This document shows, in pieces, positions 1 through 31,792 of a DNA stretch of 48,944 bases. The translations under genes and the position numbers were made by a program. Origin of the DNA: Chitinophagales bacterium (GTDB lineage Bacteria; Bacteroidota; Bacteroidia; Chitinophagales; Chitinophagaceae); contig JAATGJ010000100.1 in NCBI GenBank assembly GCA_015654695.1, forward strand, positions 1-48,944, given 5' to 3'. Under the pieces are notes generated by a model. That model had not been told where the DNA came from, made no database searches, and saw only the letters and a program-made list of their open reading frames with translations. Each line of letters opens with the position of its first letter. Position 1 is the stretch's first letter.

Positions 1-1948
1 AACCGGTGCCCGCATTGATTTGCTGTAAAATAGTTGACGCTCTTTTTTTATCTGAACTATAAACTGCAGCTGTTAATCCAAACTCAGTATCCTGCATCAG
101 TTGTATCGCTTCGGCGTCATCCTTTACTTTCATAATGCCAATGACAGGGCCGAATGATTCATCTTTCATTATACTCATGTTGTGGTTAACATTTACCAAC
201 ACAGTGGGTTCAAAGAAATATCCTGTACCCTTTAATTTTTTTCCACCGGTTAAAACCACTGCTCCTTTGCTTACTGCATCTGCCACCTGGTTTTCAAGTA
301 CCGTCAATTGTTCTTTCCGGCTCAATGGACCGATATAGACGCCCTGTTCTGTTGGAGGGCCCATCTTCCATGACTTTACTTCTTTTACAAACTCATCAAC
401 ATAACTATCATATACTTTCTCATGCACATAAATTCTTTCTACGGCACAACAACTCTGGCCATTATTATAAAATGCACCATCGGCTGTACCGGCAGCAACA
501 TCTTTTATGCTGGTTATGTCTTCAGCGACATACAAAGGGTCTTTGCCGCCTAATTCGCATTGACAAGGAACCATCTTCGGCGCTACTTTCTCATAAATAT
601 ATTTACCCGTTTTATATGAACCGGTAAAGAAGTAACCGTTAAAGGGAAGTTCCAGCAATAACTCACCAACAGCTTTTGCGCCAACAGCAACATGAAAAGC
701 ATTCGAGGATACACCAGCTTCTTTCAGCAACTTCTCAATTGCTAATCCTGTAAGCATAGCATACTCCGAAGGTTTATACATGACCGTATTACCGGCAAGC
801 AATGCGGGCACAAAAACATTTATGCCAACGAGATAAGGATAGTTCCATGCAGAAATATTGCAAACTACACCTAGTGGTTCATAACTGATTCTTTCCTCCA
901 TGCCATTGTTATTACTCATTATCTCATCGGACAAATATTTTTCAGCATTATCTGTCAGCCATTGTATCCTTGCCCTGGCGCCATTTATCTCATTACGTGA
1001 TTGCTGCAATGGTTTCCCTACTTCTGCTGTAAGCGTTGCAGCGAGCTCTTCGGTATTCTTTTCTAAAAGGGCGGCAAATCTCTTAAGCACCTGCACTCTT
1101 TTTTCAATCGGCTCCTGCCGCCAGGCTGTTTGTTCAGTGTGTAACAATTCAAATTTCTTTTGAAGACTTTCATTGGTGTCTTCATTTAATGCTGTAATTA
1201 TTTCTTCAGTGGCGGGATTGTTAACTGAAAGTTTCTTCATAGTTGTTTCCCTTAATGATGAAAGGAATTTTTTTTTGAGATTCTCAGAAAATGGATTTCC
1301 TTCTTTGCCTTTTATTCTTTCAGGGTGCCATTGCACACAAAGCATAAAAGCCTTATTAGTCTTGTCTTTAAACTCAAGTCCTTCAATGATCTTTTCTTCA
1401 TCATCATCGTAAGCATTCACTTCCAGGTTTTCCCCAATGGCGTTGGGATCAATGGCCTGGTGATGTGCGCTGTTTACATGGCCTGAAAGAGAACCTGCAA
1501 TACTAAAAAGCAAGGTATCATCGCTGGTTATTATCGTATGCTCTTTGTCAGTATCTTCTTTACGATGTCTTTCATTGCCGTTGTCAAGATCCTGTATCAG
1601 CTTGCCGCCCTGCAATACGTTTATCAACTGCATACCCCTGCATATTCCAAGAACAGGTAATTGATGCAGCTGTGAATACCTGTATATTTTTTCTTCAAAG
1701 CAGTCACGTTCCGGTTGAAACAGATCGGGGCTGTTATCATAAATTGTTCCTCCATTATAAAAAGAGGGGTGTACATCCACGCCACCGGTCAGGATAAAGC
1801 CATCACATGTATAAATATCCCCTGTATTGTTTTTTTCAAATGAAAGCTCAACGAGTTCAAGGTCATTTGCCAGGTCCTGAGCGGTAAACCAGTTCCAGTA
1901 ATTCGGAAATAATGTCCTGGTAAAGCTAATACCGATCCTCTTCTTCAT
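1..1948 (-). CDS. Fused gamma-glutamyl hydrolase (PuuD-like, peptidase C26) and aldehyde dehydrogenase (PuuC-like), 3' end cut by window
   Basis: One open frame runs from ATG at 1948 off the left edge (649 residues seen). Residues 1-235 are a class I glutamine-amidotransferase-like hydrolase: nucleophile Cys103 in GICRGMQ and His208/Glu210 in HPE complete the triad. From Met237 an aldehyde dehydrogenase follows with almost no linker: Asn369 in SAWNYP, catalytic Glu465 in ELGGKDP and Cys500 in GQSCC. Roughly 40-60 C-terminal residues lie outside the window. I walked the reverse-strand codons through the hydrolase and the junction and found no stop. An AAGGGA precedes the internal ATG at 1240, so separate ALDH initiation is also possible. 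In the putrescine Puu pathway these are the two consecutive last steps (aldehyde to acid, then removal of glutamate). The gene starts 4 bases after the alcohol dehydrogenase stop, so the two are probably co-translated. The substrate is inferred from neighbours. Confidence 0.9.
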   Translation of the reverse strand, partial: MKKRIGISFTRTLFPNYWNWFTAQDLANDLELVELSFEKNNTGDIYTCDGFILTGGVDVHPSFYNGGTIYDNSPDLFQPERDCFEEKIYRYSQLHQLPVLGICRGMQLINVLQGGKLIQDLDNGNERHRKEDTDKEHTIITSDDTLLFSIAGSLSGHVNSAHHQAIDPNAIGENLEVNAYDDDEEKIIEGLEFKDKTNKAFMLCVQWHPERIKGKEGNPFSENLKKKFLSSLRETTMKKLSVNNPATEEIITALNEDTNESLQKKFELLHTEQTAWRQEPIEKRVQVLKRFAALLEKNTEELAATLTAEVGKPLQQSRNEINGARARIQWLTDNAEKYLSDEIMSNNNGMEERISYEPLGVVCNISAWNYPYLVGINVFVPALLAGNTVMYKPSEYAMLTGLAIEKLLKEAGVSSNAFHVAVGAKAVGELLLELPFNGYFFTGSYKTGKYIYEKVAPKMVPCQCELGGKDPLYVAEDITSIKDVAAGTADGAFYNNGQSCCAVERIYVHEKVYDSYVDEFVKEVKSWKMGPPTEQGVYIGPLSRKEQLTVLENQVADAVSKGAVVLTGGKKLKGTGYFFEPTVLVNVNHNMSIMKDESFGPVIGIMKVKDDAEAIQLMQDTEFGLTAAVYSSDKKRASTILQQINAGTG

Positions 1949-1952
1949 AATA

Positions 1953-3101
1953 CTATATGGCTTTACTATAAAGGTTTTTGAAATCTTCGCGGGTGACGGG
2001 TTTCGGATTATTCGGGTGGGCGAAATCCGCTATGGCGAGGTCAGCTAATGTTTCAATATGTTCCTGTTTAACGCCGATGGCGCGCAGCTTGTGAGGTATG
2101 TTTATTGTTTCATTCAGATCAAACAAATACTTCACTACGGCTTCTCCTGTTTCTTCTTTTAATTCCAGTGTTCTGGCAATCCGTTGAAATTTATCTTCAA
2201 ACCCTTCGATATTAAATTCCATTCCATAAGGGATATTGACGGCATTGGCAAGGCCATGATGTGTATCAAGCAATGATGATAATGGATGTGCTAATGAGTG
2301 AACAACGCCCAGGCCTTTTTGAAAGGCAACGGCGCCCATTAATGAAGCGATCAGCATTTTACTTTTTGATTCGATGTCCGGTTTATTCACCGCCTTTTCT
2401 AATGACTGATGAATTAAACAAATACCTTCCAGGGCAATCCCTTCACACATCGGGTGCGGCATTTTCGCCAAAAAAGCTTCCATATTATGAGTTAACGCAT
2501 CCATTCCTGTAGCGGCCGTAATGAAAGGCGGCAGCTCCATCGTTAATAGCGGATCGGCAAAAACTATTTTCGCCAATAACTTAGGCGAGAAAAGAATTTT
2601 CTTTTGATGTGTTTCATCATCAGCAATGATGGCGCTTCTTCCCACCTCGCTTCCTGTGCCGGCTGTAGTGGGGATGGTGATAAAATGCGGCACATCGTTG
2701 GTGACATATATATCACCACCGACCAGGTCATCGTATTTGAAAAGATCTTCACGGTGATTTATTCTTAATACAATCGCTCTTGCTACATCCAGCGCAGCGC
2801 CACCGCCAATACCAATGATGGAGTCTCTTTTCGTGTTGTCATACACATCTGCACCTTTATATACATCTGACTTAACCGGGTTTTTATGTATGGCAGAAAA
2901 TGTTTCAACTGAAATGCTTTTCTGTTGAAGGTTATTAGTGATCGCTTTAAAAAAATCCAGTTGTGATACCGTTGGATCTGTAACGATCAATGGGCTGGAC
3001 AAATTATTTTGTTTAAGGTAATCACCCAGTTCTTTACTTGCCCCTGCTCCAAAACGGATGGTTGTTGGAAAATTATATTGATAAATTTTATCGAATGTCA
3101 T
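1953..3101 (-). CDS. Iron-type (group III) alcohol dehydrogenase
   Basis: This 382-residue protein has the full length of the Fe-ADH family. It shows the nucleotide-binding GIGGGAALD near residue 98, the PTTAGTGSE signature near 145, and metal ligands in TGMDALTH, the HSLAHPL histidines and THHGLANA. Enzymes of this family oxidise or reduce primary alcohols and aldehydes with NAD(P). It lies between the glutamine-synthetase-like gene (123 bases upstream, filled by palindromes) and the hydrolase-ALDH fusion (4 bases downstream). A neat inferred role is oxidation of the hydroxyl of gamma-glutamyl-ethanolamide to the aldehyde used by the ALDH half of the next gene. A purely reductive role, or another alcohol, cannot be excluded. 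Confidence 0.92.
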   Translation of the reverse strand: MTFDKIYQYNFPTTIRFGAGASKELGDYLKQNNLSSPLIVTDPTVSQLDFFKAITNNLQQKSISVETFSAIHKNPVKSDVYKGADVYDNTKRDSIIGIGGGAALDVARAIVLRINHREDLFKYDDLVGGDIYVTNDVPHFITIPTTAGTGSEVGRSAIIADDETHQKKILFSPKLLAKIVFADPLLTMELPPFITAATGMDALTHNMEAFLAKMPHPMCEGIALEGICLIHQSLEKAVNKPDIESKSKMLIASLMGAVAFQKGLGVVHSLAHPLSSLLDTHHGLANAVNIPYGMEFNIEGFEDKFQRIARTLELKEETGEAVVKYLFDLNETINIPHKLRAIGVKQEHIETLADLAIADFAHPNNPKPVTREDFKNLYSKAI

Positions 3102-3114
3102 TAAGAAATGTTTT

Positions 3115-3226
3115 GGGCTAAAGCCCGGTTGTTTTTATTCTCTTATCTCAGGGCTAAAGCCCTGAGCAAGTCATCCGCTAATTTGCTCCCATGATTTGCC
3201 CCCGGCTTTAGCCGGGGATGCAAATC
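3115..3226. repeat. Three palindromes with a GGCTTTAGCC core
   Basis: Three hairpins share the core gggctaaagccc or its slight variant: 3115-3126, 3147-3166 (ctcagggctaaagccctgag) and 3200-3217 (arms ccccggc and gccgggg around ttta). The third is extended by outer arms gatttgc (3193-3199) and gcaaatc (3220-3226) and reaches into the stop codon of the glutamine-synthetase-like gene. None is followed by a T-run in the direction of transcription, so they look more like REP-type elements or RNA-stability hairpins than terminators. Confidence 0.8.
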
Positions 3227-4583
3227 AAATGATCTCGAAATATCTTTTATATTCCCAGTCTGTCACTGCTTTCAAATGTTGCCGCCATTCCCATTCCCTT
3301 GTTTGAGTAAAATGTTCAACAAATGCAGAACCGAATAGTTCTTTGGCCACCTTCGATTGTTTCATTTGCTGTGTGGCTTCTATCAGGGTAGAAGGTAACA
3401 CTCCATGGGAATTGTCTTTGTAGCCATTTCCAACAGTAGCAGGTTGTTTAAATTTCAGTTTATTTTTTATTCCGTATAAACCTGCTGCGAGGCAGGCAGC
3501 CATCGCCAGGTAAGGATTGACATCCGATCCGATCACTCTTGTTTCCAAACGGCATGATTTACTGCTGCCGGATAAAATGCGCAATGCCACTGTCCGGTTA
3601 TCAAGTCCCCAGGTAAGCGTTGTTGGCGCCCATGCTCCTTCTACCAGTCTTTTATAACTATTAATAGTGGGAGCGAACATAGGAAGTATATGCGGCAAAC
3701 AATATAATTGACCAGCCACATAACTTTTCATCAGTTCGCTCATGTTCATTTTATCTTTTTCATCATAAAAAAGATTTTTCTTACCTGCCTTATCCCATAA
3801 ACTTTGATGAACATGTCCCCCGCAGCCAGGAAGGTTTTCATTGATCTTCGCCATAAAAGTAGCAATGATGCCGTGTTTGTAGGCTATTTCCTTTACGGCT
3901 GTTTTAAATAAAACTCCCCTGTCACCTGCTTCAAGAATGCCTGAGTGGGAGATAGCTGCTTCATAAGTGCCGGGGCCGGTCTCAGTATGTATTCCTTCCA
4001 GTGGCACATTAAATTTTTTCAGCCATTCAAAAAGATCAGTGAAATAAGGGTTCTCTAATGAACTGCGCAGAATGGAATAACCAAACATGCCAGGAGTAAG
4101 CGGAGTTAGGTTCCTGAACTGCTTATCATTCGCGGTTTGCGGTGTTTCAGCAAAATTGTACCATTCAAATTCCTGTGAAAAAACAGGGGAGTAGCCAGCC
4201 TTATTTGATTCATTCAATATTTTCTTCAGCAATTGTCTGGGACATACAGTGGAAGGATTTCCTTTTGCATCATTCAATTCTCCGAGAAAGAACGGCACAT
4301 CATTTTCCCAGGGAATTTTTCTGAATGTAGTAATATCTATTACAGCAGGGGTATCCGGGTAGCCTGTATGCCATCCTGTATATTGTACATTATCGTATGC
4401 TACATCTCCTGCATCCCAGCCGAATATGACATTGCAAACTCCCATACCGCTCTCTGCCACGGAAAGGAATTTTTCTGATGAAATGTATTTACCTCTTAAT
4501 ATCCCGTCAATATCCGTGAAGGCGATCTTCACCTTTCCCGAAGGATGGTCTTTTACATACTGGAGAATTTCTTTGGTAGTCAT
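3225..4583 (-). CDS. Glutamine synthetase-like gamma-glutamyl-amine ligase (PuuA/GlnA4-type)
   Basis: A 452-residue glutamine synthetase homologue with the beta-grasp N-domain (DIDGILRGKYIS, residues 23-34) and the catalytic domain: metal-binding Glu in TGPGTYEAA, His in GGHVHQS, and substrate and nucleotide residues in NSYKRL and CRLETR. True nitrogen-assimilating enzymes start differently; the DxxGxLRGK opening is typical of PuuA-type ligases that join glutamate to an amine with ATP. The adenylylation-loop Tyr motif of GlnA was not seen. With an ethanolamine-permease-like neighbour upstream and ADH, ALDH and hydrolase genes downstream, ethanolamine is the favoured acceptor, but putrescine or another amine is possible. 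Confidence 0.9.
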   Translation of the reverse strand: MTTKEILQYVKDHPSGKVKIAFTDIDGILRGKYISSEKFLSVAESGMGVCNVIFGWDAGDVAYDNVQYTGWHTGYPDTPAVIDITTFRKIPWENDVPFFLGELNDAKGNPSTVCPRQLLKKILNESNKAGYSPVFSQEFEWYNFAETPQTANDKQFRNLTPLTPGMFGYSILRSSLENPYFTDLFEWLKKFNVPLEGIHTETGPGTYEAAISHSGILEAGDRGVLFKTAVKEIAYKHGIIATFMAKINENLPGCGGHVHQSLWDKAGKKNLFYDEKDKMNMSELMKSYVAGQLYCLPHILPMFAPTINSYKRLVEGAWAPTTLTWGLDNRTVALRILSGSSKSCRLETRVIGSDVNPYLAMAACLAAGLYGIKNKLKFKQPATVGNGYKDNSHGVLPSTLIEATQQMKQSKVAKELFGSAFVEHFTQTREWEWRQHLKAVTDWEYKRYFEII

Positions 4584-4606
4584 AATGATACTTTAAAAAT
4601 CAGTGT

Positions 4607-4698
4607 TTCTTAGTGTATTCTTTGTGCTGGCTTTGTGCCTGCCTGCCGGTAGGCAGGGTCGTCGTGTTCCTTATTAATAACACAAAGTACACTAAGAA
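4607..4698. repeat. Nested inverted repeat between permease and ligase genes
   Basis: Outer arms ttcttagtgtattctttgtg (4607-4626) and cacaaagtacactaagaa (4681-4698) are inverted copies. Between them lies the palindrome cctgcctgccggtaggcagg (about 4638-4657). Such arms and palindromes are common dispersed repeats in Bacteroidota. This is a short, non-coding, MITE-like unit of about 92 bases inside the 158-base gap between permease and ligase. Confidence 0.7.
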
Positions 4699-4741
4699 CC
4701 ATGAAGGACGCAACGAAGTTTTTCAGCCTATAAAATACAAA

Positions 4742-6055
4742 TTATTTAGCGTGTTTTGGTTTAAAAAATTTTAAAGCGCCATAACATATACCCAATATTA
4801 AAAAATAAACTAACGCCAGCTTACCGTTATAGATTGTCATAGCCACAAAGGAAACCACCGCGATGGCCAATGCGATAACCGGGAATGCAGGATACAGCGG
4901 AACTTTAAAAGGCCGTTCAAGATTCGGCTCTTTTTTCCTGAGCTGCAACAATGCTATCATAGACACAATATACAATGTCAGTGCGCCGAATACGGAAATG
5001 GTGATGATCTCCGATGTCTTGCCTGTCAGCAAAGCGATAATGCCAATACCCATGTTCACTAATAATGCATTCGATGGTGTTTGGAACTTTGGATGGATCT
5101 TTCCAAGAAAAGCCGGGGCGAACTTTACTCTGCCGAATTCAAAACTCGATCTTCCTGCAGCCAGTATGATACCGTGAAAAGAAGCGACAAGACCAAACAA
5201 ACCTACCGTTATCAGCAAATGATACAACAGGTTATTACTCCCAACAATATGACCCAGCGCTAACGGCAGGGGGGAGTCGGAAGTAGTGCCGTCTGGTTTG
5301 TAAACAATCGCTTCCCATCCGGCTACACCAACAGAACTGATAAAGGTTAGTACACATAAAATAACTAATGTACCAATAGCAGAACCAAAACCAAACAATA
5401 TCGTCCGCCTTGGATTAATCGCTTCTTCGGCAACATTGGCTACACCTTCAATAGCCAGGAAAAACCATATTGCAAAGGGGATAGCGGCAAATATTCCCTG
5501 CCATCCATTCGGCAAAGCATTATGCTGCAGATTTTTTAATTCAAAATGCGGTAATGAAACGCCTGCGAATAACAATAATTCTCCCACTGCAAAGAGCGTA
5601 ATCACCAGTTCAAAAATAGCTGCGGCTTTTACACCATATATATTTAATGCAGTAAAAACAACATAACTGAAAATAGCGATAACAAGTATGGGAATAGTGG
5701 GAAAAAATAAATTGAAATAAGCGCCGATGGCGAAAGCAATGGCAGGTGGTGCGAAAATGAATTCTATATTCTGCGCCATACCAGCAACGAATCCCCAGTC
5801 TTTTCCCAATGCACGGTTGGCATAATCAAAGCCACCCCCGGCTTTGGGTATGGCACAGGCAAGCTCAGTATAACTGAAAGTGAAAGTGACATACATGATG
5901 ATGATAAAGAAAGTAGCAATGGCCAACCCAAGTGTTCCTCCTTTTTCCAGCCCGAGGTTCCAGCCAAAATACATACCGGAAATAACATAGCCTACTCCGA
6001 GTCCCCAGAGCATGAGTGGGGTAAGGGTGCGTTTTAGTTCGTTGGGTGCTGACAA
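4742..6055 (-). CDS. eat: APC-family amino acid/amine permease, ethanolamine permease-like
   Basis: A 437-residue, about 12-TM transporter of the amino acid-polyamine-organocation superfamily. Stretches such as GVGYVISGMYFGWN (21-34), EFIFAPPAIAFAIGAY, IFAAIPFAIWFFLAIEG and GLFGLVASFHGIILA follow my memory of the ethanolamine permease (EAT) subfamily closely. The start must be TTG at 6055: the frame hits a stop at 6065-6067 upstream with no ATG between, and the next ATG (residue 15) would cut into the conserved first helix. It is the first gene of the likely amine-use operon. Ethanolamine is the best substrate guess; a different amine or amino acid remains possible. Confidence 0.88.
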   Translation of the reverse strand: MSAPNELKRTLTPLMLWGLGVGYVISGMYFGWNLGLEKGGTLGLAIATFFIIIMYVTFTFSYTELACAIPKAGGGFDYANRALGKDWGFVAGMAQNIEFIFAPPAIAFAIGAYFNLFFPTIPILVIAIFSYVVFTALNIYGVKAAAIFELVITLFAVGELLLFAGVSLPHFELKNLQHNALPNGWQGIFAAIPFAIWFFLAIEGVANVAEEAINPRRTILFGFGSAIGTLVILCVLTFISSVGVAGWEAIVYKPDGTTSDSPLPLALGHIVGSNNLLYHLLITVGLFGLVASFHGIILAAGRSSFEFGRVKFAPAFLGKIHPKFQTPSNALLVNMGIGIIALLTGKTSEIITISVFGALTLYIVSMIALLQLRKKEPNLERPFKVPLYPAFPVIALAIAVVSFVAMTIYNGKLALVYFLILGICYGALKFFKPKHAK

Positions 6056-7063: not shown

Positions 7064-7418
7064 TCTCTCTTTGCGGGGTACTGCTAATGATTCTTAAATT
7101 ATTTTACTCGTTATGGCAGGCTGAAGCAAACTCCCTGGCTGGTTTCTGTAACGATCAGCTTATCAGGCGCATTCTCTTGCTGATAATATAGTATAGTATA
7201 GTATGTGCAGTATGTATTGTTTTAAATTATGGTGCGGGGTACTAGCCCCGGCGGCATTTTCTTTGTTCTCCCGGTTCCCGGCTTTTCAAACAACAATTCA
7301 AACACCGATTTCATCAATTCATCCCTCATACTCTCAATTCACCTGCTGAAACTGGCATTTTGCAGGCCCATTAATTATATTTGAGTGATACAAACACACT
7401 CTATTGCCACGACCCGGG
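7064..7418 (+). other. Intergenic stretch with a short ATAGT tandem repeat
   Basis: No gene is seen in these 355 bases. A pentanucleotide tandem (atagt repeated three times, then a variant) covers about 7187-7205. The only other signal is the TATATTTG box near 7376, listed separately. Confidence 0.6.
7376..7383 (+). promoter_or_regulatory. TANNTTTG -7 box (TATATTTG)
   Basis: An exact TANNTTTG match 35 bases before the ATG of the propeller sensor gene. A TTTG at 7359-7362 is closer than the usual 19-21-base spacing, so the -33 box is uncertain. The same ATTATATTTGA string precedes the paralogous gene on the other strand (30893-30900), which makes chance less likely. Confidence 0.4.
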
Positions 7419-10400
7419 ATGTATATACTTGTTCTCCTGCTTTTATCACAGCAGTTATTTAGTCAGCAGGCAAGACATTATACTTTTACCCACTACGGCA
7501 GTAATGCGGGGATAGGCTCCAATGAAGTACTCTGCGTTACACAGGATGAACAGGGATATTTATGGATCGGCACCACCAATGGCCTGCAACGGTTTGATGG
7601 TGTTCGTTTCAAAACATTCCGTAACCAAAAAAATAATCCTGTTTCTATACCGGGCAATTACGTTCACCAGCTAATGGTGGATAAAAAAAAGAACTTGTGG
7701 ATACAGTCAGCGGGTGATAAAGTAGGAATTTTCGATACTAAGAATTTCACGTTTCGTGAAGTGCCGGTGAAACCAGGTAATGAAATGTGGGTTAAAAATG
7801 CAAAGGGCATTGTACAGGACGAGTATGGAAATATTTTTTTAGTCATCGCTAATCTTGAACTGCTGACCTATAATGAGGAGAAGAATGAATTCTCACCTGC
7901 CCATAACTTTATTCATTTTCCCCGTGAATGGGGTATTATAAGTTTCTTCCAGGAACCGGGCACCAAAAAATACTGGATCGGAACACAGAAAGGGCTGGCT
8001 GTTTTCAACCAGGCAACCCATCAACTTAGCTATGCAGGTCACAATACGGAAAACGAAGACCTGATCAATAAACTTGGAACCGTAAAGGCGTTGGCCATTG
8101 CTACGATGGACAAACAGGGCCGTTTATGGTTTAATAGCTGGAAAGAGGGCGCAACGGTCACCTATGCCTACAACATGTACACAAAAGAAATGGTATTGAA
8201 CGAATACAGCCTTATGCCTGTAATAGGGGCTTACCACGAACCAGGAAAATTGCTGGTACAGCATGATGGAACAATCTGGATCAGCGGACTTGGGGTATTC
8301 GGAAGATTCCTGGAAAAAGAAAAGAAATTTGAACTCGTACATAACGGGCTGGAGAATGAACAAAGCATCGCTTACAACAGGGTGTATGATCTTTTCGAAG
8401 ACAGGGAAGAAAATATATGGGTGGCTACCAGCGACAATGGTTTATTCCGCTTTACACCCTCCGATCAATTCTTTACCAACGTAAGACAGGTGAACAGAAT
8501 GAATGGTAAACCCGGTGATGGCAGCATGATGTCTTTTGTGCGTACCAGGCAGGGAACAATATTGGCTGGTGCGTGGGGAGATGGTATTTATCATTTTGAT
8601 TCTGCTTTCAATATGATTCCCCTTAATATTAAAGGGTTCAATGAAAAGTCAACTCCTTCTATGTGGGGGATGTTTGCATCTGCCGACAATAATACAATTT
8701 GGATTGGATCGCAGCCGGGTATCGTAAAGCTGGACCAGGATACACGTACTGCGACATTCTATAATCCTGCCATCCTGAAAGAAAGGACCATCAGGCAGGT
8801 AGCAGAAGATAAGTTCGGCAACCTATGGATAGGCACACAGAGTATTGGTCTTTTTAAATGGACAAAGGAAAAGGGGAAAATAAAATTTGATGCCGGTGTA
8901 AGCCCATTCAGGGATATACCCCCGGCGCAAATTGTAAAACTACATATAGATAAGAAGGGGTATGTATGGGTATGCACCAGCAGCGCCGGGCTATATGTAA
9001 TAGACCCCGCCAATGATAAAATAGTATTGCACCTGGGAATGAATGAATCCACCGGCACAAGACTATTAGGGGATGGTGTCGTTTCAGTATTGGAATATGA
9101 CGACAGCACCGTGGCAATTGCGGCCAATGGATTGCACCTGTATAATACAAGATTGAAAAAGATCACCAAAACTATCGCATTACCCGAGTCCATACCCGGC
9201 ATCATTGCCGCCATGGAAAAAGACAGCCAGGGATACCTGTGGGTTTCTATGACGAGTGGCATTTTCCGGGTAAATCCTAAAAATGAAATATTCATACACT
9301 TTGACAGGATTGACGGTATAGCGAATGACCATTTTACAGTAGCAGCTTCCTATACATTGCCGGATGGCAAGATCATATTCGGCGCCGACAACCAGCTTGT
9401 TTATTTTGATCCGCTGAAAGTGCAGGTAAATGATCCGGCCCCGGATGTTACCATCACCGGTTTCAGGTTGATGAATAAACCCCTGCTTATGGATTCGTTA
9501 CTGAAAAAGAAAGCGATCAGGCTAAGTCCCGAAGAGAACTCGGTTACTATTGAGTTTTCCGGTATGAACTTTAACGGTACCTATATCATACGTTACAAAA
9601 TGGAAGAACTGGATAAGGAGTGGCAGACCGGGGACAAAACCGGCCAGGTAGTGTATTCCTATCTGCCACCGGGTACTTATACATTCCTGGCAAAATGTGA
9701 AGATGCGGAAGGCCACCCGTCAAGGAATATCACAAAACTTATCATTGTCGTCAACCCGCCGTTCTGGAAAACCTGGTGGTTCTTCTGCCTGCTGGCATTG
9801 CTGATCGCTTCTGTTTTCTATTGGCTGGATAAACAGAGAGTGAATAAAATACTGGCCCTGCAAAATGTAAGAACAGAGATCGCCGGCAACCTGCATGAAG
9901 AAGTAAATACAACCCTGAACAATATCAACCTGCTCAGCGAAATGGCCAGGATAAAAGCGGATAAAGACATTAACCGCTCCAAGGAATATATAGACCAGAT
10001 CAGTACCAAGAGCCATAATATGATCACGGCTATGGATGATATACTCTGGAGTATTGACCCGGACAATGATACGATGGAAAAATCATTATTGCGAATGATG
10101 GAATTTGCCGATGAACTGAAGAACAAGTACGGGGCAAAAACAGAACTGGCACTCGATAAAAGAGTACGGTCGCTTAAACTGGATATGAAAACCCGGCACG
10201 AAGTGTTTATTATATTTAAAGAAGCGTTCCGGATGATCGTACAACACTCGGGGGGTAAAGAAACGCTGGTTCATATTGACCTGTTTAAAAATAAACTGTC
10301 CATGAAACTGCATGACCACTCTGCCACGCTGGATAAAAATACCGGGGAGATTGACAGTGCTATTAAAGAAATGAACAGCCGTGCTGCTACGATTGGCGCT

Positions 10401-10463
10401 GACCTGGATGTGCAGTATGATAAAAATGGGGTAGCTGTTTTACTGCTGGTGCCAGTGAAGTAA
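7419..10463 (+). CDS. Two-component-regulator propeller sensor with HisKA_3-like segment and decayed ATPase domain (copy A)
   Basis: About 1014 residues. A signal peptide opens the protein (MYILVLLLLSQQ), followed by repeated propeller blades with WIGT and WVAT-type motifs (about 30-660), a Y_Y_Y domain (about 665-770, with YSYLPPGTYTF), one TM helix (WWFFCLLALLIASVFYW, about 780-797) and a dimerisation helix with LHEE as the phospho-acceptor box. The ATPase end is altered: the N-box reads EAFRMIVQH instead of EAxxNxxKH and no DxGxG box is visible (DHSATLD stands there). The protein may therefore dimerise and be phosphorylated without being able to phosphorylate. TTG at 7404 is an alternative start. 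No response regulator adjoins it. A close paralogue lies at 27821-30895. Confidence 0.9.
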   Translation: MYILVLLLLSQQLFSQQARHYTFTHYGSNAGIGSNEVLCVTQDEQGYLWIGTTNGLQRFDGVRFKTFRNQKNNPVSIPGNYVHQLMVDKKKNLWIQSAGDKVGIFDTKNFTFREVPVKPGNEMWVKNAKGIVQDEYGNIFLVIANLELLTYNEEKNEFSPAHNFIHFPREWGIISFFQEPGTKKYWIGTQKGLAVFNQATHQLSYAGHNTENEDLINKLGTVKALAIATMDKQGRLWFNSWKEGATVTYAYNMYTKEMVLNEYSLMPVIGAYHEPGKLLVQHDGTIWISGLGVFGRFLEKEKKFELVHNGLENEQSIAYNRVYDLFEDREENIWVATSDNGLFRFTPSDQFFTNVRQVNRMNGKPGDGSMMSFVRTRQGTILAGAWGDGIYHFDSAFNMIPLNIKGFNEKSTPSMWGMFASADNNTIWIGSQPGIVKLDQDTRTATFYNPAILKERTIRQVAEDKFGNLWIGTQSIGLFKWTKEKGKIKFDAGVSPFRDIPPAQIVKLHIDKKGYVWVCTSSAGLYVIDPANDKIVLHLGMNESTGTRLLGDGVVSVLEYDDSTVAIAANGLHLYNTRLKKITKTIALPESIPGIIAAMEKDSQGYLWVSMTSGIFRVNPKNEIFIHFDRIDGIANDHFTVAASYTLPDGKIIFGADNQLVYFDPLKVQVNDPAPDVTITGFRLMNKPLLMDSLLKKKAIRLSPEENSVTIEFSGMNFNGTYIIRYKMEELDKEWQTGDKTGQVVYSYLPPGTYTFLAKCEDAEGHPSRNITKLIIVVNPPFWKTWWFFCLLALLIASVFYWLDKQRVNKILALQNVRTEIAGNLHEEVNTTLNNINLLSEMARIKADKDINRSKEYIDQISTKSHNMITAMDDILWSIDPDNDTMEKSLLRMMEFADELKNKYGAKTELALDKRVRSLKLDMKTRHEVFIIFKEAFRMIVQHSGGKETLVHIDLFKNKLSMKLHDHSATLDKNTGEIDSAIKEMNSRAATIGADLDVQYDKNGVAVLLLVPVK

Positions 10464-15000: not shown

Positions 15001-16089
15001 TTAACTGTTTGCTGCGGACGTTTGCCCGGCCATCCATTTCTTTTCAATATTATTATCCCATATCAGCGGTAATACAACGGTGAAATTTTTCCCATCCTCC
15101 ATCACGTGAAAACCATTCTGTCCAAGCAACCTGTATTTCATCTTAATATTATCCAGCCCGATTTTATTAGACGGTCCTTTTTTCGTTCTTCGCTGCAGGT
15201 TATTATTTACGATCAGCTTATTGCCTGCCGTAGTAAATATATCAATTACCAACGGTTTATTTTTAGACAGCACATTGTGTTTTACCGCATTTTCCACCAG
15301 CAACTGAAGGCTCAGCGACGGCAGCAGGTAATGATTATACCGCTTATCTGATTCTACCTGGAATTGTACCGCATCCCCATGTCTTGTTTTCAGCAAACGA
15401 AAATAAGATTCAATGAACTTCATTTCATTTTCCAATGTAGAAAGACCGGCTTCATTATTCCGCAGCAGGTAACGATATACTTTGCTCAGTTCATCCAGGA
15501 ATACTTCCGCCTTGGCTGCGTCTTCCGTAATCAGCGATGATAAGGTATTGAAACAATTAAATAGAAAATGCGGATTGACCTGGCTTTTCAACACATCAAA
15601 TTCCTGCTGCAATGACATTTGTGATACCAATTCTTTTTCCGCAATACTTTCCCGGTGCTTGTCCATAATATACAAAGCTTCCCATAACGTAGAAAAAACC
15701 AGGTTGACAGCGAAGCCCACCAATAGTCCTTTTAACAGATCATCGTTTGTTAGACGGTAACCAAGTATATGCAACCGGTCGTAGAGAAAAAAAACGATCA
15801 GTATAGCCGGTGTCATGACGAAAATATTCACGGTGCATTTCAACAGTATCCTTTTGGTACTCTGGCTTACTTCCGGGTATTTTCTTTGTGCATTATGACT
15901 ATAAAGAACATGAATATACCAGGTGATCATCCCGGCTACAAATACCAGGGGAAAGGATACCAGCCAGATCCTGTAGTCCCGGAACAGACGGTCATCATAC
16001 AATACATAATTAAGTCCAAGCGATATCAGTGGCATGGAGGCGAGGAAGGAATACCATTCTATCTTCGTGGATTTTCCCCATTTTATCAT
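15001..16089 (-). CDS. LytS/YehU-type sensor histidine kinase (His_kinase family)
   Basis: A 362-residue membrane kinase: about four TM helices in residues 12-140, then a short coiled region, the phospho-acceptor box QVNPHFLFN (about 193-201), and an ATPase domain with N-box LVENAVKHN and a C-terminal GLDNIKMKYRLL motif typical of this family. The start codon overlaps the stop of the second kinase as ATGA, so the two are translationally coupled. The ligand is not evident; the sensing part is membrane-embedded. Confidence 0.93.
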   Translation of the reverse strand: MIKWGKSTKIEWYSFLASMPLISLGLNYVLYDDRLFRDYRIWLVSFPLVFVAGMITWYIHVLYSHNAQRKYPEVSQSTKRILLKCTVNIFVMTPAILIVFFLYDRLHILGYRLTNDDLLKGLLVGFAVNLVFSTLWEALYIMDKHRESIAEKELVSQMSLQQEFDVLKSQVNPHFLFNCFNTLSSLITEDAAKAEVFLDELSKVYRYLLRNNEAGLSTLENEMKFIESYFRLLKTRHGDAVQFQVESDKRYNHYLLPSLSLQLLVENAVKHNVLSKNKPLVIDIFTTAGNKLIVNNNLQRRTKKGPSNKIGLDNIKMKYRLLGQNGFHVMEDGKNFTVVLPLIWDNNIEKKWMAGQTSAANS

Positions 16090-17144
16090 ACCACTACCTC
16101 CTCTGTTTTGCTGATCAATGGTAAAACGATCAGTCTCTCATTTCCGCTTTCATGAATTTCTACCGGTTGTTCGCTCATGAGCTGGTACTTTTTGATAAGA
16201 TTGTCAAGGCCGGTTTCCTGGTCGCCTGTCTCGGTAAGTATTTTCCGCTGCACATTATTTTTAATAATGATCGTATTTTCTTTTCCGGATATGATCGTAA
16301 TTTTTAACGGGGAACTTTTACTTGTTTTATTCTGGTAAAGTGCATTCTCCACGATCACCTGCAGGCTGAGCGGGGGCAGGCTTTTTTCTTTATCTGCCTC
16401 GGTTACTGCAATTTCTACTTCCACCGCATCACCATACCTCGACTTAAGTAATGAAAAATAGGATGAAATGAATTGTATCTCTGTTCCCAGTTTTACCAGC
16501 GGATCATCATCATTGCGAAGCATATAGCGATACACTTTGCTTAGTTCGTCAAGGAACTTTTCCGCCTTTTCCGTGTCTTCCTGTATCAACCCCGAAAGTG
16601 AATTAAGGCTGTTGAATAAGAAATGGGGGTTTACCTGGCTTTTGAGACCGATCAACTGGCTTTGCTTAAACGTCAATTTTAGTTCCTCTGTTTCTTTCAG
16701 GTTTGCTTTCCAGTTTTCAAAACGGTAGATACCCTCATTTAAAAAAGTGAGAAAGATATTCAGTATACCCGTGCTGATATAGGCCCATGTAAAATTATTT
16801 TCTTCCTTGCTATCGCCCAGTAAGCCTACCGCATGATAGACAGTATAAATGCCAAATATGATCAGGGCTGATATGGTGAGGAACAACAGGATCAATATGA
16901 TAGTGCGTTTCAGAAAATTACTATCACCCGGAAACCGCTGCCGGAAAGTAACTGCTATGTTGCCATACAAAATAAAACTGGCGGACATGATCAGGAAAGT
17001 AACCGGGGTGGCTATGAAAAAGACCTTAGCGGATGAAAAGTATTCCCTCCCAAAGATGATGATATTCAGCAGGATAGAAAAAGGTGTCATTGTCCAGAGC
17101 ATAATGGACAGGTCACGGGTGGTATAGCGGGGAAATTTTAACAT
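16086..17144 (-). CDS. LytS/YehU-type sensor histidine kinase, second of a pair
   Basis: ATG at 17144 is preceded by CAGGAGACG, an unusually good Shine-Dalgarno for this genome, so it is preferred to the TTG at 17165. About 352 residues: four TM helices, QVNPHFLFNSLNS phospho-acceptor box, and an ATPase domain in which the N-box reads IVENALYQN, with the usual Lys-His changed to Tyr-Gln. The GLDNLIKKYQLM motif is kept. Together with the next kinase it may form a heterodimer feeding the LytTR regulator. The altered N-box suggests weaker or no ATP use by this partner. Confidence 0.92.
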   Translation of the reverse strand: MLKFPRYTTRDLSIMLWTMTPFSILLNIIIFGREYFSSAKVFFIATPVTFLIMSASFILYGNIAVTFRQRFPGDSNFLKRTIILILLFLTISALIIFGIYTVYHAVGLLGDSKEENNFTWAYISTGILNIFLTFLNEGIYRFENWKANLKETEELKLTFKQSQLIGLKSQVNPHFLFNSLNSLSGLIQEDTEKAEKFLDELSKVYRYMLRNDDDPLVKLGTEIQFISSYFSLLKSRYGDAVEVEIAVTEADKEKSLPPLSLQVIVENALYQNKTSKSSPLKITIISGKENTIIIKNNVQRKILTETGDQETGLDNLIKKYQLMSEQPVEIHESGNERLIVLPLISKTEEVVV

Positions 17145-17296
17145 CGTCTCCTGGCAAATTACCAACTTTTGCCCATGATTTCCGGCCGCTATCTTCCTGG
17201 TTGGCAGAAACCTGTCATGAATTGTGTAAAACCGTGTTTGAATTGTATACCCGGAAAGTGGTAGATGGGGAACAGGGATTTCGCAGGTATAGCATA

Positions 17297-26045: not shown

Positions 26046-26747
26046 ATGCCTGAGATCAAACCTGGCAGTGGAAAGCTATTGACCCCTGCAGGCAATGCGG
26101 CCGGTATTTCAAGAAGAAAGTTTCTTGGATATACAGGAGCTGCTGCAGTAGTGGCTATTGGTATTTCTTCCTGCGACAAAGACGACGACAACAACAACAG
26201 TTCCGGAATTGACCTTGGATCCGGCGATGTAGGTATCTTAAATTATGCCTATGCCCTTGAGCAACTGGAAGCCGCCTTTTACATTAAAGTACTGCTAACA
26301 CCCTACGCCGGCGGCTCCGTTACTGAGATGGCTTTACTGGCCGACATCCGGGATCATGAAATTGCGCACAGGGAATTTTTTAAAAACGCCTTAGGTTCCG
26401 GCGCTATCCCGGGACTGACACCTGATTTCAGTGCTATTAATTTTTCCGACCGTACCTCTGTACTTGCCGCAGCCAAAGCATTTGAAGATACAGGTGTGTC
26501 CGCTTACAACGGGGCCGGTAAACTGATCACGACCCCGGCTTATCTCACGCTGGCAGGCAAAATTGTTTCGGTAGAAGCAAGGCACGCTGCCTGGATAAGG
26601 GACATCATTAGTAACGGAACTTTTGCGGACAGCACTGCAGTGGATGCACAGGGTCTTGATTTGGTGGCTACCCCTGCACAGGTATTGGTAATTGCCAATA
26701 CTTACCTGGCAACAAAAATTTCAGGAAATAATTTACCAACTTCTTAA
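26046..26747 (+). CDS. Exported ferritin-like protein (Tat signal, lipoprotein)
   Basis: A 233-residue protein with a twin-arginine motif SRRKFLG (22-28), a hydrophobic segment, and a lipobox-like GISSC with Cys43, then an acidic Asp/Asn linker: probably exported folded and anchored by lipid. The rest is a four-helix ferritin-like domain: QLEAAFY, DHEIAHREFF, AFEDTGVSAY and SVEARHAAWI supply the Glu and His ligands of a di-metal site. It is followed 11 bases later by a related gene. The reaction is unknown; the class includes stress-related proteins of Bacteroidota and others. Confidence 0.9.
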   Translation: MPEIKPGSGKLLTPAGNAAGISRRKFLGYTGAAAVVAIGISSCDKDDDNNNSSGIDLGSGDVGILNYAYALEQLEAAFYIKVLLTPYAGGSVTEMALLADIRDHEIAHREFFKNALGSGAIPGLTPDFSAINFSDRTSVLAAAKAFEDTGVSAYNGAGKLITTPAYLTLAGKIVSVEARHAAWIRDIISNGTFADSTAVDAQGLDLVATPAQVLVIANTYLATKISGNNLPTS

Positions 26748-27820: not shown

Positions 27821-30800
27821 TCATTTTACCGGAACCAGCAATACAACAGCTATTCCATTTTTATCATACTGCACGTCCAGATCAGCGCTGATCAGGGCCG
27901 AACGTGTATTCATCTCTTTAATGCTGGTATCAATTTCAGCTACATTTTTATCAAATGTGGCTGTAGCATCCTCCAGTTTAATGGAAAGTTTATTTTTGAA
28001 CAGGTCTGTATGAATAACTGTTTTCTTTCCTCCCGAATACTGTACCATCATTCTCAATGCCTGTTTAAAGATCAGGAAAACTTCATGACGGATCTTCATA
28101 TCCAGTTTCAGCGACCTTACTTTTTTATCCAGTATAATTTCAATACTGGCCCCATGCCGGTTCTTCAATGCATCGGCAAACTCCATCATGCGCAGCAATG
28201 ATTTTTCCATCGTATCATTATCCGGGTCAATGCTCCAGAGTATATCGTCCATGGCAATGATCATGTTATGACTTTTATTGCTGATCTGGTCAATGTATTC
28301 TTTGGAGCGGTCTATCTCCTTATCCGCTTTTATTCTTGCCATTTCGCTCAGCAGGTTGATATTGTTCAGCGTGGTATTTACTTCTTCATGCAGGTTGCCG
28401 GCTATCTCTGTTCTTACTTTTTGTAAAGCGATCAGTTTGTTCACCCGTTGTTTATCCAGCCAGTAAACAACCACGGCGATCAGCAATGCCAGCAGGCAGA
28501 AGAACCACCAGGTTTGCCAGAAAGGGGGAGGAACTGTTATTTTTAATTCCGTTGTTTTTTCCGAATAAATGCCATCGCCGTTCTCGCAGCGTACTTTGAA
28601 AGTATAAGTACCGGGCGGAAGATAAGTATAGATAGCCTGGTTTTGCGCAGAGGCTTTTCTTATCCATTCTTTATCCAGGTTTTCCAGCCTATAGCTGATG
28701 CCATAACTATTCTGAAAGGTTAATGTAGAAAATTGAATGATGATGGAATTTTCGCCGGGCTTTAGCGAGATATAAGGTAAATGCAGCAAAGAATCCACCG
28801 GTAACGATTTATTCAATAAGGTAAAACCGGTAATGATCACATTGGGTGGTGTCAGGTCTATCTGGGAAAATTGCGAAGGATGATAGACTATCAGGTCATG
28901 CGCGGTGCCCATCGCTATCCGGCCATCATTCAACACACAGGTAGCAGCGGTGTTAAAATTAACAGTAGGCAGCCCGTCATTTTCATTGTAAGTGCTGACT
29001 ATTGAATTTTTCATATTAACTGTACATAAACCACTTTCGAGAGTTATCCATAAATGGCCCCTTTCGTCTTTAACTATATTGGAAACGGTATTGGAAGGAA
29101 GCCCGTTCACAGAAGAGAAATACCTGATCGTATTCGTGCGGATATTCAGGATATTCAAACAACCGCTGCCGATGATATACAGGCTATCGTCATATTGCAT
29201 AATATCCGAAGTGGAGGTCAGCATCAGTTTACGGTCTTTAGGGCCATCCGCAGTATAATTATAGATGACGCTGCCGTCTTTACTATTTACCCTGAATACA
29301 CCATGACTCCTCGTACACGCCCAGATATCACCCTGTTTATCCGTATAAAGCCGAAAGATGATACTGCCGAATTTTTGTATTAAAGAGAAACTATCTGCGG
29401 CTGCATCCCATTTTATCAAATGACCGCCTTGTGTACCGAGCCAGAGGTTACCGTTTTTATCTTCAGTTATCTGCCGGATAGTCCATCCTTTGAATACAGG
29501 CGGGCGTATCTTTTCACTGCTTTTTTTACCAGCATGATAAATAAACAGGAGCCCACCCTGGTTGCCCCTCCATATATCTCCATTGGCACGTTCGTATATG
29601 CACCAGGCCATACCTTCACCCAGTTGAAGACTCTGTTCTGCATAATCTCTTTTCACCGGGTTGAGTTCTTTATCATACGCAAACAGTCCATCGCCCCAGG
29701 TACTGACAAGTATATCGCCATTTCGCAACTGCATTATACCAGATACATCCGGCATATAAGCCTTGTCATCATTTATTCTCCTGCTGGGGATCGTATGAAG
29801 AAACTGGCCGGCAGGATTAAAACGATATAACCCTTTATTGGTGGAGATCCATATATTACGTTCTTTGTCTTCAAACAAATTTCTGACACCGTCGTAGCGG
29901 ATGCTGAACTCACCGGGGAGGTTACTTTCTACCAGTTCAAATATTTTTTTTCTTTTGTTGAATTTTGCGAACAGGCCGCCACCATATACCCAAAGGGTAC
30001 TATCCTCCTGTTCTTTTAAGGCATAGGTCTCATGGTATTTGCGTTTAAGAATAACATTCAGGTGCGGATCCCAGTCGGTTAATTTTTTTGTGGCCATGTC
30101 ATAACTGTAAAACATGGAGATGCCCCCCGGGGGCCATGATAGTAACCAGAACCTGTTTGAGCTGTCCCAGTAAGGGATTGAAGTATATTTAGCCGAAGTA
30201 TAAGCATTGATGATTGGATCGTTCGTTACATTATGTCCGCGATAGGACATTAGTTTTTCTTTGATGCTGTATTTAACAAGCCCTGAGTCGCAGGCTATCC
30301 AGTAATTGTTATTAACAGGATCCTGTGTTATACCAAAAGGTCCCCAGTTGGCCGGTACGCTGAAAGGATTGTGTGTGGATGCAAACTCACCTGCAGCTTC
30401 ATTATAGGTGAGTATGGCCTTGTGCTCCAGTATCAGCATCAGGGTACCCTCATTATCTTTCATGAAACGGCTGTCAGCATCCCGCAGGGGCATTTCAGGA
30501 TAGCGTACCAGTACTTCATGAAATGTAAAATCAGCAGTATTAAAATAACCCATTTTGTTTTCCCCGCATTTCAGCCAGAGCCTGTTTTTTTTATCCAGGT
30601 GCAGCCAATACACGGCATCGTTAGGAATAGAACTGGTATCACCGGGAATATGCTGAAAAGTTAGAAAACGGCGGCCATCATAACGCTGGAGCCCGTTCAG
30701 CGTAGCGATCCAGATAAATCCTTTGGCATCCTGCTCTGTACCCGTTACTTCATTTGATACAAGCCCGTTGCGTGATCCAAGATGATAGAAAAGATATTCC

Positions 30801-30895
30801 TGTTTCGGTTGTGCGGATAGAGTGCTGCTCATCGCAGCCAGTAAAACGAGTATGAATGATCGCAACTGCAAAATACGGGGTGGTTTGTCTTTCAA
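27821..30895 (-). CDS. Two-component-regulator propeller sensor with decayed ATPase domain (copy B)
   Basis: Up to 1024 residues with the same plan as copy A at 7419: signal peptide (ILVLLAAMSSTLSAQ), propeller blades (WIATLNG, WISTNKG, WLGTQGG), Y_Y_Y domain (YTYLPPGTYTF), TM helix (WWFFCLLALLIAVVVYW) and LHEE dimerisation helix. The C-terminal 260 residues are nearly identical to copy A while the propeller is clearly divergent. The ATPase end is decayed too: the N-box reads QALRMMVQY and there is no DxGxG. No ATG fits: TTG at 30895, 30871 or 30865 are the options, and the promoter-like box at 30893-30900 would favour one of the later two. Confidence 0.9.
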   Translation of the reverse strand: MKDKPPRILQLRSFILVLLAAMSSTLSAQPKQEYLFYHLGSRNGLVSNEVTGTEQDAKGFIWIATLNGLQRYDGRRFLTFQHIPGDTSSIPNDAVYWLHLDKKNRLWLKCGENKMGYFNTADFTFHEVLVRYPEMPLRDADSRFMKDNEGTLMLILEHKAILTYNEAAGEFASTHNPFSVPANWGPFGITQDPVNNNYWIACDSGLVKYSIKEKLMSYRGHNVTNDPIINAYTSAKYTSIPYWDSSNRFWLLSWPPGGISMFYSYDMATKKLTDWDPHLNVILKRKYHETYALKEQEDSTLWVYGGGLFAKFNKRKKIFELVESNLPGEFSIRYDGVRNLFEDKERNIWISTNKGLYRFNPAGQFLHTIPSRRINDDKAYMPDVSGIMQLRNGDILVSTWGDGLFAYDKELNPVKRDYAEQSLQLGEGMAWCIYERANGDIWRGNQGGLLFIYHAGKKSSEKIRPPVFKGWTIRQITEDKNGNLWLGTQGGHLIKWDAAADSFSLIQKFGSIIFRLYTDKQGDIWACTRSHGVFRVNSKDGSVIYNYTADGPKDRKLMLTSTSDIMQYDDSLYIIGSGCLNILNIRTNTIRYFSSVNGLPSNTVSNIVKDERGHLWITLESGLCTVNMKNSIVSTYNENDGLPTVNFNTAATCVLNDGRIAMGTAHDLIVYHPSQFSQIDLTPPNVIITGFTLLNKSLPVDSLLHLPYISLKPGENSIIIQFSTLTFQNSYGISYRLENLDKEWIRKASAQNQAIYTYLPPGTYTFKVRCENGDGIYSEKTTELKITVPPPFWQTWWFFCLLALLIAVVVYWLDKQRVNKLIALQKVRTEIAGNLHEEVNTTLNNINLLSEMARIKADKEIDRSKEYIDQISNKSHNMIIAMDDILWSIDPDNDTMEKSLLRMMEFADALKNRHGASIEIILDKKVRSLKLDMKIRHEVFLIFKQALRMMVQYSGGKKTVIHTDLFKNKLSIKLEDATATFDKNVAEIDTSIKEMNTRSALISADLDVQYDKNGIAVVLLVPVK

Positions 30896-31111: not shown

Positions 31112-31792
31112 ATGCAACGGTACAATATCTTTCTCCAGGTCCACAAAGGATTGAAGGCTCTTTTATATGATACGGCGTTAAAAGTTCAGCATACTGATTT
31201 CTGGAATGTAGAAGAAGCGGAAGACACTATTGAAAGGATAAACGAAGTGGTAAGCCTTTTTGAAAAGCATGCACACAGCGAGGACACCTATGTTTTTTCT
31301 GTGGTGGAGAAATATGAACCATCTGTAGCGGATGCTTTTGAACAGGAGCATGTGAAGGACCATTTCCTGGGACAGTTGCTGGAAGGATCGCTGGCTCTTT
31401 ACAAAAATGCCGGCATCATAACTGAAAAAGTGGAAGCCAGTAAACAAATTCAATCAGCGTATATAAAATTCATGGTCTTTAATATAGAGCACATGGCGAA
31501 AGAAGAAGATGTGATCAACCCGATACTGTGGAGGTATAATACCGATGCGGAGATCATGGCGATCACGCAGCAGATAGTAGCCAATATACCACAGAACCAG
31601 ATGGCGGTCGTCAGCAAATGGATGATCAGGGGGCTTAACAATGCCGAAATAACCGGCTGGCTGAAAGGAGTGGAAAAGAATGCACCGGAGCCGGTGTTCC
31701 AGTCATTGTTTGTAATAGCAGAAAGAGAATTACCCGAAAGGCGTTTCCGCCAGGTACTGGAAAGCCTGACGGAAGGAGCTATGCTCGCATAA
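31112..31792 (+). CDS. Hemerythrin-like (HHE) domain protein
   Basis: A 226-residue soluble protein. The first 150 residues form a hemerythrin-like four-helix domain with spaced His and Glu: His11, His53/His55 with Glu57, His80/His84, and His127 with Glu131/132 in EHMAKEE, the usual di-iron ligand pattern. The C-terminal 75 residues are helical and not part of the domain. Such proteins bind oxygen or sense oxygen, NO or iron. It has no signal peptide. A terminator follows at 31943. Confidence 0.85.
   Translation: MQRYNIFLQVHKGLKALLYDTALKVQHTDFWNVEEAEDTIERINEVVSLFEKHAHSEDTYVFSVVEKYEPSVADAFEQEHVKDHFLGQLLEGSLALYKNAGIITEKVEASKQIQSAYIKFMVFNIEHMAKEEDVINPILWRYNTDAEIMAITQQIVANIPQNQMAVVSKWMIRGLNNAEITGWLKGVEKNAPEPVFQSLFVIAERELPERRFRQVLESLTEGAMLA

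Follow-up and report, generated by a model that had tools for sequence, protein, structure and literature searches.

Can a bacterium without the cobalamin-dependent ammonia-lyase EutB turn ethanolamine into glycine, and do four genes at the edge of a Chitinophagales contig encode such a route? The genes lie in a stretch of 48,944 nucleotides from Chitinophagales bacterium (assembly GCA_015654695.1, contig JAATGJ010000100.1, or C173 in our numbering), hereafter the window. The genome comprises 5.4 Mb in 187 contigs and is 98.84% complete; its nearest named relatives are metagenome-assembled genomes (MAGs) labelled Chitinophagaceae or Bacteroidota. Within the first 6 kb of the window, all on the minus strand, we find genes for a permease, a glutamine synthetase (GS)-like ligase, an iron-type alcohol dehydrogenase (Fe-ADH) and a hydrolase fused to an aldehyde dehydrogenase (ALDH). 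An original prediction, made from the letters alone, had described this single-direction set, and open reading frames (ORFs), Pfam and NCBIfam models confirm it. The same prediction held that the genes form a closed ethanolamine-to-glycine set. This is the best-supported reading: the operon is very probably a cobalamin-free ethanolamine-to-glycine unit that works by gamma-glutamylation. The pathway is not new, however, being already known from Phaeobacter, Streptomyces and Chromohalobacter; what differs here is the phylum, the ligase lineage, the hydrolase family and the transporter.

In the proposed scheme, an APC-family permease, probably for ethanolamine uptake (Eat type; positions 4742-6055, 437 residues, TTG start; TIGR00908), would import ethanolamine. 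The ligase, a probable gamma-glutamylethanolamide synthetase (3225-4583, 452 residues; PF00120, 325 bits), would use ATP to attach its amine group to glutamate at the gamma-carboxyl, and the Fe-ADH, a probable gamma-glutamylethanolamide dehydrogenase (1953-3101, 382 residues; PF00465/PF25137), would convert the free hydroxyl of the product into an aldehyde. The fusion (2-1948, 649 residues, open at the contig edge) would carry the final two steps on a single chain. Its C-terminal ALDH domain, probably a gamma-glutamyl-aminoacetaldehyde dehydrogenase (2-1240, cut by the contig edge; PF00171, 393.6 bits), would yield gamma-glutamylglycine, which the N-terminal C26 (PuuD-type) domain, a probable gamma-glutamylglycine hydrolase (1265-1948; PF07722, 136.7 bits), would cleave into glutamate, to be recycled, and glycine. 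The latter could pass into the glycine cleavage system, and GcvP is present in the genome. We infer what each step acts on, in which direction it runs and what it yields, and favour ethanolamine because of the linkage of the permease, the parts held in common with known ethanolamine sets, the intact catalytic residues and the lack of EutB. No match to EutB (PF06751) was found in this 98.84% complete genome, and the cobalamin-dependent Eut pathway was rejected for it.

Does the permease point to ethanolamine? It scores 448.7 bits against the NCBIfam ethanolamine permease model TIGR00908, beyond the cut-off of 381.75. This model marks 20 genomes in a phylum sample of 395 evenly drawn genomes. 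In eight of them the permease lies at most 204 bp from a window-type ligase, and in seven it lies 80 to 703 bp from EutB, with 45-49% identity to the permease of the window. The resemblance to the ethanolamine family stated in the original prediction is borne out by the model score. In G422 the permease and EutB are on different contigs, the EutB locus being at a contig edge, and in G119 and G213 the permease belongs to an alternative set of ligase, short-chain dehydrogenase/reductase (SDR), ALDH and amidotransferase.

This alternative set (L203:3973-9491 and L204:4306-9901) combines a ligase of the Eto/GlnA4 clade with SDR, ALDH and amidotransferase; its permease shares 70-71% identity with that of the window ('Eto' for a whole gene set is our label; EtoVWX is the published name of the Phaeobacter transporter). 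The amidotransferase is of class I by Pfam in L203, and L204 has an ORF of the same length. The high identity of the permeases indicates that near relatives within one permease family work with either type of ligase. In the permease tree, which does not include the permease of a third alternative set (L044), a 99/99 split separates the EutB-linked permeases from a group in which the two from alternative sets join those of the operon. A 100/100 branch divides the ligases of all three sets (L203, L204, L044), which go with the Eto/GlnA4-like ones, from the window type. With related permeases beside two ligase clades and sister permeases beside the ammonia-lyase, the common substrate would be ethanolamine, and the permease of the window is a probable ethanolamine importer. 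In L044, two small ORFs between ligase and SDR (4877-5729) resemble, on visual inspection, a toxin-antitoxin pair of the Xre/RES kind.

The ligase is probably not a glutamine synthetase proper. Its scores against the NCBIfam models for GlnA, GS-III and PuuA all miss the cut-offs, with 216.7 bits for PuuA where 650 are required. All 47 aligned operon ligases keep every metal and ATP residue (site positions were taken from PMC6529630). At the ammonium site, all 47 carry F in place of Y179 and W in place of E327; D50 persists in 39 of them, and the window keeps both D50 and E212. The part of PMC6529630 that treats these sites gives W in PauA7 and F in GlnA4 at the E327 position. P stands at the glutamate-site N264 position in the operon ligases. 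The ligase would thus lack a whole ammonium pocket and, with Y179 and E327 replaced and the GlnA score below cut-off, we reject the glutamine synthetase reading. An AlphaFold model has the GS fold (pLDDT 80.4) and is least sure at residues 49-76 and 165-176, the spans that hold the D50 and Y179 positions. Its best Foldseek match in the PDB is Brucella glutamine synthetase, and a sequence search of the PDB matches 5dm3, which we take to be a Chromohalobacter ligase.

Where does this ligase stand among its relatives? We built a quick tree of 84 rows, with 47 ligases from operons and 18 from another cluster described below, and a careful one of 41 rows (17 and 6); both use thinned sets, and they agree. 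The careful tree, which leaves out the Shinella ligase and the E. coli PuuA and GlnA (long branches, with an unsure place in the quick tree), puts the window ligase outside the Eto/GlnA4-like clade with a split of 100/100, an Embleya relative standing in for S. coelicolor GlnA4. The name GlnA4-like, also given to the ligase originally, is therefore not tenable. The operon ligases of Bacteroidota form one group, which also holds the lone ligases L036, L039 and L121, the last from a MAG labelled Thalassobius (transfer or mis-binning). Outward from them branch the ligases of that other cluster, then a proteobacterial group (including Legionella and Photobacterium), then IpuC, which falls outside the clade of window and proteobacterial ligases at 100/99. 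Identity between the window ligase and those of Eto-type sets is 33%.

The remaining enzymes keep their catalytic residues. The metal ligands D, H, H and H are present in 25/25 operon ADHs, the hydrolase C, H and E in 70/70 sequences, and the ALDH Cys in 73 of 74 (one gap), with Glu and Asn in 74/74. Identity of the Fe-ADH is 29% to EutG, 32% to FucO and 37-40% to the ADHs that five proteobacterial records have close to GS-like genes. Its best NCBIfam model is 4-hydroxybutyrate dehydrogenase, below cut-off, which is also the best model for the Paracoccus and Legionella ADHs. Among the 40 ADHs listed from 524 plasmid records, 13 are in records also listed for the ligase (50 ligases listed of 236), the two genes lying 1.4-4.1 kb apart; of the other 27, 18 are from near-identical Pseudosulfitobacter plasmids.

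Is the operon a conserved unit? We compared a genome set of 59 genomes, that of the window included, with 17 ligase matches, and a named-locus set of 80 loci, the best of 240 relatives, picked by ligase similarity and not at random. After removal of six duplicates there were, apart from the window, 90 distinct ligase loci; 81 of these also have the ADH, an association that goes beyond chance. Identities to the window proteins are 62-87% for the ligase, 59-89% for the ADH, 57-88% for the permease, 51-80% for the ALDH and 32-81% for the hydrolase. A search of Bacteroidota genomes for this gene order had been suggested at the outset, and the order permease-ligase-ADH-hydrolase-ALDH does recur across Bacteroidota loci. 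The permease is upstream of the ligase in 57 of 65 named loci with enough upstream sequence; downstream, 51 named loci with enough sequence have the ADH in 49 cases, the ALDH in 47 and the hydrolase in 43. All five parts are present in 34 of the 43 named loci having both flanks. The criterion behind these counts misses two permeases, in L040 and L087, because permease and ligase frames overlap there; both are visible in the locus maps. Cultured carriers in the Chitinophagaceae include Niabella, Segetibacter, Ginsengibacter and Ilyomonas, and further carriers include Aquirufa, Lacihabitans, Snuella and Cyclobacterium.

The hydrolase-ALDH fusion is real and not peculiar to the window: hydrolase and ALDH share one frame in 20/90 loci, are separate genes in 43/90, and are cut off or lack one partner in 27/90. 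In L033, one of the 20, the frame is shared but its ALDH part is interrupted. A quick tree of 71 hydrolase rows requires eight changes between the fused and separate states, three of them forced by strongly supported branches, which indicates that the fusion was gained or lost more than once. Some loci show other rearrangements. The hydrolase of L034 (10740-11450), from a same-genus genome, is only 43% identical to that of the window while the ligase, ADH and permease of this locus reach 82-86%, so that the hydrolase gene was apparently replaced within the operon. Small unrelated ORFs are inserted within the operon at L050:10484-10939, L052:8529-8909 and L071:10356-10910, by eye a transposase-like, a GxxExxY-like and an ORF6N-like protein. 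L094 is a Bacteroidota-type operon in a record labelled Beijerinckiaceae, through transfer or mis-binning.

The window starts at base 1 of its contig, and over its bases 1-197 it overlaps the end of another contig of this genome, C132, with 97% identity (6 mismatches). There the ALDH frame continues for 44 residues and then stops, giving a fusion of about 693 residues, the length found in the same-genus relative L029. The missing end of the ALDH is probably on C132. If this putative junction is right, there is no further operon gene on that side, and the operon appears to end with the ALDH. The original prediction allowed that genes to the left might complete another pathway, for instance with PuuB and PuuE; none lies in the operon, to which our search for them was confined. 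Outside the operon no neighbour gene is widely conserved across the distinct ligase loci. We compared the rest of the window and 17 kb of C132 by tblastx with 10-19 kb around the operon in six same-genus genomes; no match exceeded 150 bits, which suggests that the operon occupies a different genomic place here.

How does this set compare with known ethanolamine systems? A passage of PMC10132767 reports a four-step pathway for Phaeobacter as a prediction, together with induction seen by proteomics and measurements on the binding protein of the transporter, and calls the pathway demonstrated in Chromohalobacter and Agrobacterium. For Streptomyces, the relevant part of PMC6529630 describes a ligase assayed with ethanolamine, with later steps predicted. 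Flavobacterium is among the genera reported to use ethanolamine in a passage of PMC9397018 that gives no route for it. We recognised no description of a Bacteroidota version among the papers listed by our searches of an open-access library, subscription journals being outside our coverage, and the gene set seems undescribed in this phylum.

Plasmid 1 of Paracoccus denitrificans PD1222 (L128) has the order RpiR-FGase-TRAP-GS-ALDH-FeADH, the gene set reported for Phaeobacter, FGase denoting the N-formylglutamate amidohydrolase family. Like the window operon, the set of Phaeobacter sp. MED193 and Paracoccus comprises a GS-like ligase, an Fe-ADH (37% identity between the Paracoccus and window enzymes), an ALDH, an amidohydrolase reaction type and an operon transporter. 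However, its ligase belongs to the other clade, its hydrolase is an FGase where the window has a C26 protein, its transporter is of the TRAP type rather than an APC permease, and the window operon has no regulator. The GlnA4 (SCO1613) cluster of Streptomyces coelicolor likewise has a GS-like ligase and the same proposed end products, and other Streptomyces clusters carry an amino acid/ethanolamine permease, comparable to the probable ethanolamine permease of the window (both from the part of PMC6529630 on these clusters). The Embleya cluster, our stand-in for GlnA4, has an Eto-clade ligase (49% to Paracoccus), an SDR and a permease of 37% identity, and no Fe-ADH match. A Legionella lytica plasmid (L126) shares with the window a sister-clade ligase (43%), an Fe-ADH (40%), an ALDH (33%) and a class-I amidotransferase, but in the order ligase-ALDH-ADH-amidotransferase and with no adjacent permease. 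Since its ALDH and ADH are 54% and 52% identical to the Paracoccus enzymes, a ligase of the window's sister clade here stands beside Eto-type enzymes. Eut systems with an Eat-type permease share the permease family with the window, whose genome differs in having no EutB match.

Several observations weigh against the ethanolamine route. Six operon loci (L060, L081, L084, L087, L105, L115) have no hydrolase gene between ADH and ALDH. In five of the six genomes, the C26 matches found at other places are all weak (E 1e-8 to 1e-9); they pass the Pfam cut-off, each of the 14 control genomes has matches that pass it too, and we take them for putative ordinary class-I amidotransferases. FGase had no match in any of the six, and a search of 14 carrier genomes for this Paracoccus-type family gave no match in 13; the last step is thus unexplained in the hydrolase-less genomes. 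Gamma-glutamyltranspeptidase is uninformative here, occurring in 4/5 genomes without a clear C26 hydrolase and also in 8/9 other genomes searched. The permease has neither ligase nor EutB as partner in G245 and G270, and 5 of 12 EutB loci, that of G422 at its contig edge included, have no adjacent permease. Ligases of the other cluster are 50-64% identical to that of the window (for example L124:9001-12425 and L151:7673-10940), and no residue difference between them and the operon ligases is fixed at 90% in both, so the ligase sequence alone cannot name the substrate. Promiscuity is possible in GS-like amine ligases, according to a passage of PMC11335346.

Which other substrates could fit these genes? 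ADH and ALDH need only a primary alcohol on the amide, and the same chemistry could act on 3-aminopropanol, giving beta-alanine, or on 4-aminobutanol, giving GABA; the 4-hydroxybutyrate dehydrogenase model, sub-cut-off as it is and shared with the Paracoccus and Legionella ADHs, would be in keeping with this. Against such substrates stands the permease family, tied to EutB in seven genomes and to an Eto/GlnA4-clade ligase in two, and ethanolamine is the abundant natural member of the primary amino alcohols. We regard another amino alcohol as unlikely. Far less credible still is a Puu-type route for putrescine or polyamines. It would account for a PuuD-type hydrolase, an ALDH and a GS-like ligase in one operon, but the ligase scores far below the PuuA cut-off and the operon, the only part of the genome searched for them, has no oxidase or transaminase gene, for which E. 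coli has puuB and puuE; a conserved ADH takes their place. An isopropylamine (Ipu) type route, or general amine detoxification, draws on a further point against ethanolamine: among the 50 of 236 plasmid ligases listed, the substrate-specific names are IpuC, at 38-41% identity nearer than the ligases of Eto sets. Yet both IpuC loci read have P450, ferredoxin and ferredoxin reductase genes near the ligase and none of these is among the operon genes, nor is any outside gene widely conserved beside the operon, and IpuC branches outside the window and proteobacterial clade. Model score, missing partner genes and tree position led us to reject the Puu-type and Ipu-type readings, which we hold to be very improbable.

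The ethanolamine-to-glycine reading concerns only part of the window ligase's relatives in the phylum. At a threshold of E at most 1e-100 the ligase is present in 41 of the 395 sampled genomes, and we read all 41 neighbourhoods. Eight are window-type operons; the other 33 are a different cluster comprising the ligase, an unannotated protein of about 347 residues and a HAD hydrolase (missing, by the labels, from one of them); none of these 33 neighbourhoods gave a permease or ADH match. The unannotated protein has a mean column identity of 68% in alignment. It gave no Pfam match (one member searched), no PDB match below E 0.6 and a weak, sub-cut-off NCBIfam match; a single-sequence model was useless (pLDDT 36), and by eye the protein recalls APH/choline-kinase motifs. 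Six of the 12 EutB genomes also have a ligase, always of the other-cluster type without permease or ADH, and for this reason we set aside their co-occurrence as an argument against ethanolamine. EutB is found in none of the eight operon genomes, although chance alone would also give about none. A doubtful extension of the ethanolamine reading is that the window ligase represents an independent line of enzymes that gamma-glutamylate ethanolamine, the second of its kind; the sister ligases would then form another undescribed, cobalamin-free handling of ethanolamine or gamma-glutamylethanolamide.

Any breakdown of phosphatidylethanolamine sets ethanolamine free, and Bacteroidota play an important part in degradation in soils, sediments and freshwater. 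If the operon acts as proposed, ethanolamine use in this phylum is not predictable from eutBC alone, and a search using Eto or GlnA4 ligases as sole markers could misplace these genes. One pathway would then have been rebuilt from exchangeable parts, namely two ligase clades, an Fe-ADH or an SDR, and hydrolases of several kinds, all supplied by related permeases that in other genomes work for the ammonia-lyase.

Beyond the operon, the window contains two large Reg_prop/Y_Y_Y sensor genes (7404-10463 and 27821-30895), an adjacent pair of His_kinase genes (15001-17165), and genes for a ferritin-like protein (26046-26747) and a hemerythrin-domain protein (31112-31792).

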